From Candidatus Bathyarchaeota archaeon (GTDB lineage: Archaea; Thermoproteota; Bathyarchaeia; 40CM-2-53-6; RBG-13-38-9): a stretch of 44,675 nucleotides of DNA. Under the pieces are notes generated by a model. It ran no database searches and was not told where the DNA came from. It was given only the letters and a program-made list of their open reading frames with translations. The stretch covers positions 11,372-56,046 of the forward strand of contig JAGTRD010000007.1 in NCBI GenBank assembly GCA_018396915.1. Direction: 5' to 3'. Positions 16,828 to 17,028 of the stretch are shown in pieces (position 1 is the stretch's first letter; each line of letters opens with the position of its first letter). The translations under genes were made by a program, and so were the position numbers.

Positions 16828-16885
16828 TAGCCTAAAATAGGATTTAGTTTAATTATTGGAATGTTAGGTAAATAGGAGGGGTATC

Positions 16886-17028
16886 GGGGTCGTCGTCTAG
16901 CTTGGTCATGGGCGATCCGCCAAGAGGATACCAGAGCATAGTACGCGGTGAACCTGGGGAGCAGCCCAGAACGCTGGCGGTCGCGGGTTCAAATTGACGA
17001 TGTCATGAGAGTCCCGCCGACCCCACCA
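16886..17028 (+). tRNA. tRNA-Pro(GGG) precursor interrupted by four short introns
   Basis: Acceptor GGGGTCG (16886-16892) pairs with CGACCCC (17018-17024), then A73 and an encoded CCA. The mature molecule can be assembled from five exons: about 16886-16907, 16925-16934, 16953-16959, 16972-16993 and 17012-17028. This gives D stem GTCT/GGAT, anticodon stem CCAGC/GCTGG, anticodon loop CTGGGGC (anticodon GGG), variable loop CGGTC, T stem GCGGG/CCCGC and T loop TTCAAAT, 75 bases to the discriminator plus CCA. The introns would be about 17, 18, 12 and 18 bases in the D loop (near 20/21), anticodon stem (30/31), anticodon loop (37/38) and T loop (59/60). Boundaries are uncertain by one or two bases. 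A bulge-helix-bulge could only be sketched for the anticodon-loop intron (helix CAGC/GCTG). Confidence 0.8.

Follow-up and report, generated by a model that had tools for sequence, protein, structure and literature searches.

The window analysed here, a 44,675-nucleotide stretch on contig C7 of a 1.63 Mb, 96% complete Bathyarchaeota assembly, contains a 143-base tRNA-Pro(GGG) gene (16886-17028) that consists of five exons and four introns and encodes its CCA end (Table 1). The gene and its introns are secure by comparison with orthologous genes, and the locus is almost certainly a functional tRNA-Pro(GGG) gene, apparently the sole copy in the genome, whose four bulge-helix-bulge (BHB) introns would be spliced by an alpha/beta endonuclease and the RtcB ligase. 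Published accounts, among them reviews and the description of tRNAscan-SE 2.0, place the limit for archaeal tRNAs at a 'maximum of three introns' (PMC4033280), 'up to three' (PMC8450103), 'two or three' (PMC6379350) or 'as many as three' (PMC3293823). The present gene goes beyond this limit with its four intron sites, every one of which is unoccupied in some relatives. Its mechanism is that usual in archaea, and the novelty lies in an intron number past the published limit.

Structure of the tRNA-Pro(GGG) gene

Removal of the four introns yields a tRNA of 76 nt, or 79 nt with the encoded CCA, which folds into a cloverleaf and is identified by ARAGORN as tRNA-Pro with anticodon ggg. The five exons lie in order within 143 bases, an arrangement that is not that of a split or permuted tRNA. 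The putative TATA box is kept in a second genome of the same genus (locus L002), and the gene is flanked by an asparagine-synthase-like gene on one side and by an AIR-synthase-family gene, probably hypE, on the other.

Table 1. Features of the tRNA-Pro(GGG) gene and its upstream region, in window coordinates
Feature	Coordinates	Strand	Length (nt)	tRNA positions and content	Sequence	Splicing motif
Putative TATA box	16849..16856	+		about 30-37 bases upstream of the gene	TTTAATTA	
Exon 1	16886..16908	+	23	1-20b: acceptor 5' strand, D stem 5' strand, most of D loop	GGGGTCGTCGTCTAGCTTGGTCA	
Intron 1	16909..16924	+	16	20b/21	TGGGCGATCCGCCAAG	helix UGGU/GCCA, bulges CA^U and AG^A
Exon 2	16925..16934	+	10	21-30	AGGATACCAG	
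Intron 2	16935..16952	+	18	30/31	AGCATAGTACGCGGTGAA	helix UACC/GGUG, bulges AG^A and AA^C
Exon 3 (micro-exon)	16953..16959	+	7	31-37: bears anticodon GGG	CCTGGGG	
Intron 3	16960..16971	+	12	37/38 (canonical)	AGCAGCCCAGAA	helix CUGG/CCAG, bulges GG^A and AA^C
Exon 4	16972..16993	+	22	38-59: anticodon stem 3' strand, variable loop, T stem 5' strand, T loop	CGCTGGCGGTCGCGGGTTCAAA	
Intron 4	16994..17011	+	18	59/60 (T loop)	TTGACGATGTCATGAGAG	helix UUCA/UGAG, bulges AA^U and AG^U
Exon 5	17012..17025	+	14	60-73: T stem 3' strand, acceptor 3' strand, discriminator A		
Encoded CCA	17026..17028	+				

The 143 bases are exactly those described by an earlier sequence-only reading, whose proposal of a tRNA-Pro(GGG) with introns in the D loop, anticodon stem, anticodon loop and T loop is borne out by the relatives and the BHB motifs analysed below. 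Its boundaries for introns 2, 3 and 4 were exact, but it placed the start of intron 1 at 16908. The start is set at 16909 because relatives lacking the D-loop intron read GGTYNAGGAT, and because no other boundary gives the 4-bp helix with 3-nt bulges and a cut after base 2. The GGTYNAGGAT sequence occurs in every parsed tRNA-Pro(GGG) of the class without a D-loop intron, with the exception of those of G049 and G075, which are one base shorter.

As the same reading had anticipated, standard tRNA finders miss the gene: ARAGORN run on the window reports no tRNA at all, and Rfam returned no match on the window and none even at E<=1 on the 143-base stretch. It had also named an intact intronless tRNA-Pro(GGG) elsewhere, with this locus silent, among the findings that would speak against it. 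Neither a second or intronless copy nor any further match to the region was found in the 96% complete assembly, from which, given that completeness, a second gene could be absent. One locus that ARAGORN labels Pro(ggg), L040, was rejected as a second GGG gene: read by hand, its anticodon stem CGCGG/CCGCG and 37/38 motif give tRNA-Pro(TGG), and it was hence not counted.

Comparative analysis of orthologous genes

Orthologues of tRNA-Pro(GGG) were gathered from the class and parsed exon by exon. All four introns are present in nine genomes, eight from the family of the window (f1) and one from a second family (f2); two of these genes (G002 and G007) are identical in sequence, leaving eight distinct four-intron genes. 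Other relatives carry different subsets. Family f3 retains introns in the D loop and anticodon stem, lacks those of the anticodon loop and T loop and presents an intron of a fifth kind in the variable loop. In family f5, only the 37/38 and T-loop sites are occupied, the f4 genome G011 has introns in the anticodon stem, variable loop and T loop, and G229 and G059 have them in the D loop and anticodon stem. No intron was observed in ten genomes of families f11 and f21. Each of the four sites is found singly empty in relatives whose flanking exons are the same, the empty sites reading CCAG|CC for intron 2, GGGG|CGCTGG for intron 3 and TTCAAA|TCCC for intron 4, and the exon/intron boundaries are thereby fixed. 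Chance can be excluded, since all four introns turn up in nine genomes and relatives possess these exons uninterrupted.

The spliced window tRNA is identical in 75 of 79 bases to the intronless tRNA-Pro(GGG) of another Bathyarchaeal genome (G167), exon 1 being fully identical, and the four differences amount to two exchanged, compensated base pairs in the T stem. Among the eight distinct four-intron genes, mean identity is 94% in the exons and 63-73% in the introns. Together these comparisons bear on the proposal that the locus is a decaying tRNA pseudogene with random insertions and a working copy elsewhere. The failure of Rfam and ARAGORN to see the gene and the incompleteness of the assembly are compatible with such a pseudogene, but the exons are nearly invariant across genera and families, changes in stems are compensated, the introns vary and yet keep their BHB pairing, and no second tRNA-Pro(GGG) was found in the genome, which makes this explanation exceedingly improbable. 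An assembly or sequencing artefact, conceivable in draft contigs derived from metagenomes, has a practically negligible chance of accounting for the data, as a genome of the same genus (G001) shows the same gene structure at 95% identity over the region, with changes that preserve the helices, and seven further genomes agree.

A search with the exon pattern of the D arm and anticodon stem matched 23 named records, and those carrying a phylum name were mostly Candidatus Bathyarchaeota; the host thus belongs to this group and not to Thermoproteales. The introns are likely to have been gained one site after another in this order of Bathyarchaeota.

Two other arrangements were observed among the orthologues. 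Three genomes of family f22, G201 (L162), G207 (L164) and G210 (L165), contain isolated 5' halves of tRNA-Pro(GGG) ending at CCAGCC. Their reading as split tRNAs was dropped, as two of the three, G207 and G210, also have a complete gene with a different insert in its D loop; the 5' halves in these two genomes may be relics of integration. In G038 (L169), an insert of roughly 34 nt (CGTCC...CCACCA) seems to interrupt the acceptor 3' strand of tRNA-Pro(GGG) and may be an intron of the acceptor stem.

Splicing motifs

The sequence-only reading had outlined a splicing helix for the anticodon-loop intron alone, but reading each junction for the motif reveals one at all four. They present a single geometry, encompassing a 4-bp helix between exon and 3' intron sequence, a 3-nt bulge on each side and a cut position after the second bulge base, and in the window gene all four pairs of this BHB core are standard (Watson-Crick or G-U) at every intron. 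Over the distinct introns of the orthologues, standard pairs make up 73/80 central-helix pairs in the D loop, 76/76 in the anticodon stem (19 introns), 61/64 in the anticodon loop and 46/48 in the T loop. The central-helix and inner-hairpin scores were reached by 0 of 2000 intron shuffles at every site, in a procedure that ignores the kinship of the sequences. Furthermore, the anticodon-stem site covaries, exon UACC being accompanied by intron GGUG and exon UCCC by GGGG, and the inner hairpins of T-loop introns pair despite unrelated sequences (UGAC/GUCA in intron 4 of the window gene, GGA/UCC and CGGCUU/AAGCCG).

Beyond this core, the motifs vary. Intron 4 has a clear outer helix on the exon side, formed by the T stem, and none of the other three motifs is as regular. 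Intron 3 acquires its outer helix once intron 2 is gone and the anticodon stem is whole, and its inner hairpin is merely nominal. Introns 1 and 2 present relaxed motifs, since the outer helix of the former is weak (about 2 bp) and the latter has no outer exon helix; alpha-beta endonucleases have been described to cut such relaxed motifs (PMC6379350). In minimum-energy folds the BHB form is not favoured for introns 1 and 4, at a cost of 0-2.5 kcal/mol, the result is mixed for intron 2, and the four motifs do not appear together in a fold of the full-length precursor.

The relaxed BHB around introns 1 and 2 would also suit a real tRNA with three introns, in which the fourth insertion is retained in the mature molecule, for instance as an enlarged D or T loop. 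The contact between D loop and T loop is a conserved feature of tRNA structure, and it would not be expected to survive an insert of 18 nt in the T loop or one of 16 nt in the D loop; moreover, at each site some relatives lack the insert between identical flanks, and the T loop bears the most regular motif. Retention is hence very improbable.

Splicing machinery and proposed order of intron removal

The genome encodes two splicing endonuclease proteins with the PF01974 domain, a pair of catalytic alpha and structural beta type that matches the motifs described above, and a single RtcB ligase. The first PF01974 protein can be aligned from end to end with solved archaeal EndA structures (2cv8 and 3p1z, the latter presumably from A. 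pernix); the alignment includes the catalytic-triad positions Tyr, His and Lys and pairs a loop lysine with residue 44 of 3p1z. In A. pernix, K44 has been linked to broad substrate specificity (PMC6379350). The other protein is without the catalytic His, which is consistent with a structural beta subunit.

These genes and motifs suggest a pathway in which the precursor would be transcribed whole, a heterotetrameric endonuclease of catalytic alpha and structural beta subunits would cut after the second base of both 3-nt bulges at each intron, and RtcB would ligate the five exons into a tRNA presumably used by the cell. The 30/31 intron would probably be removed before the 37/38 intron, because the 37/38 motif depends on the anticodon stem CCAGC/GCUGG, which intron 2 interrupts and which is whole only once that intron is out. 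This helix is absent from the fold of the full precursor and complete in every version that holds intron 3 without intron 2; it also forms as a local hairpin, without the exon stem, in one version still holding intron 2, and ordered splicing is thus something that we infer. Sequential intron removal has been described as necessary in tRNAs with two or three introns (PMC8450103).

Relation to known multiple-intron tRNAs

The closest described counterparts are the multiple-intron tRNAs of Thermoproteales (Sugahara et al. 2008; Fujishima et al. 2010; both cited through PMC4033280 and PMC8450103), which likewise combine short BHB introns at canonical and non-canonical positions with an alpha-beta splicing endonuclease and patchy gain among relatives. 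Their published maximum is three per tRNA, whereas the Bathyarchaeota genome studied here has four in tRNA-Pro(GGG) and apparently five in tRNA-Trp. Caldiarchaeum subterraneum also has introns in the D, V and T arms and several multi-intron tRNAs; 13 of its 45 tRNAs are interrupted, three of them by multiple introns, and none with four is reported in the part of PMC3293823 available. Nuclear three-intron tRNAs of algae similarly combine D-, anticodon- and T-arm introns in one tRNA, but they are eukaryotic and, in the available parts of PMC9602550 and PMC4090602, have at most three. No report of an archaeal tRNA with four or five introns, or of Bathyarchaeota tRNA introns, was found in the open-access literature, and a report outside the literature seen is possible.

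The three-intron limit describes known cases and is not a mechanistic one. With an anticodon borne on a 7-nt exon, the present gene extends the degree to which a tRNA gene can be subdivided. The orthologues provide a natural series of 0, 1, 2, 3 and 4 introns in one gene, with which intron gain and loss and the order of splicing can therefore be tested. In addition, essential tRNAs of Bathyarchaeota can escape standard tRNA and Rfam searches, and genomes of this group may in consequence seem to lack tRNAs.

Other interrupted tRNA genes in the genome

The Rfam tRNA model identifies 20 loci in the 96% complete genome, 19 of them over the cut-off, and many other tRNAs are probably hidden by introns. 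Read by hand, the tRNA-Pro(TGG) at L040 has a 37/38 intron and the tRNA-Pro(CGG) at L093 has one intron in the T loop and another in the anticodon loop. T-loop introns also occur in a Glu-like tRNA and in one further tRNA (L094 and L096), which together with L093 identifies the T loop as a recurrent intron site in this genome. A T-loop-intron pattern run over the genome gave 11 matches, five of them within tRNA genes, against 8 in a reversed control, and is by itself no evidence.

The expectation that four introns in one tRNA would be exceptional held when set against the three introns of the literature, but this gene does not stand alone, and tRNA-Trp(CCA) of the same genome appears to carry five introns. 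This gene (C2:132481-132715; L097 1535-1769) splits into six exons and five introns, located at 10/11, 28/29, 37/38, the variable loop and 59/60, and its spliced product of 77 nt is identified by ARAGORN as tRNA-Trp(cca). Helix pairing is complete or one pair short at every listed site, four of the five sites are empty in relatives, the 37/38 insert being present in all, and tRNA-Trp genes with five introns were also identified in G003, G007, G012 and G017.

In G012 (L101), the introns at 10/11 (D stem) and in the variable loop of tRNA-Trp are identical in 16 of 17 bases and each is preceded by CCGTAG, a pattern suggestive of copying from one such site to another in the same gene. A joint reading, in which one order of Bathyarchaeota holds the most interrupted tRNA genes known (four introns in Pro(GGG), five in Trp), must splice them in a fixed order, since certain motifs arise only once others have been taken out, and has had introns copied between matching CCGTAG sites of a single gene, is likely. 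The 37/38 insert of tRNA-Trp is 60 nt long and contains an ATGATGA box as well as a GGAGC segment whose complement, GCTCC, lies at the anticodon; by eye, it resembles a C/D-box RNA.
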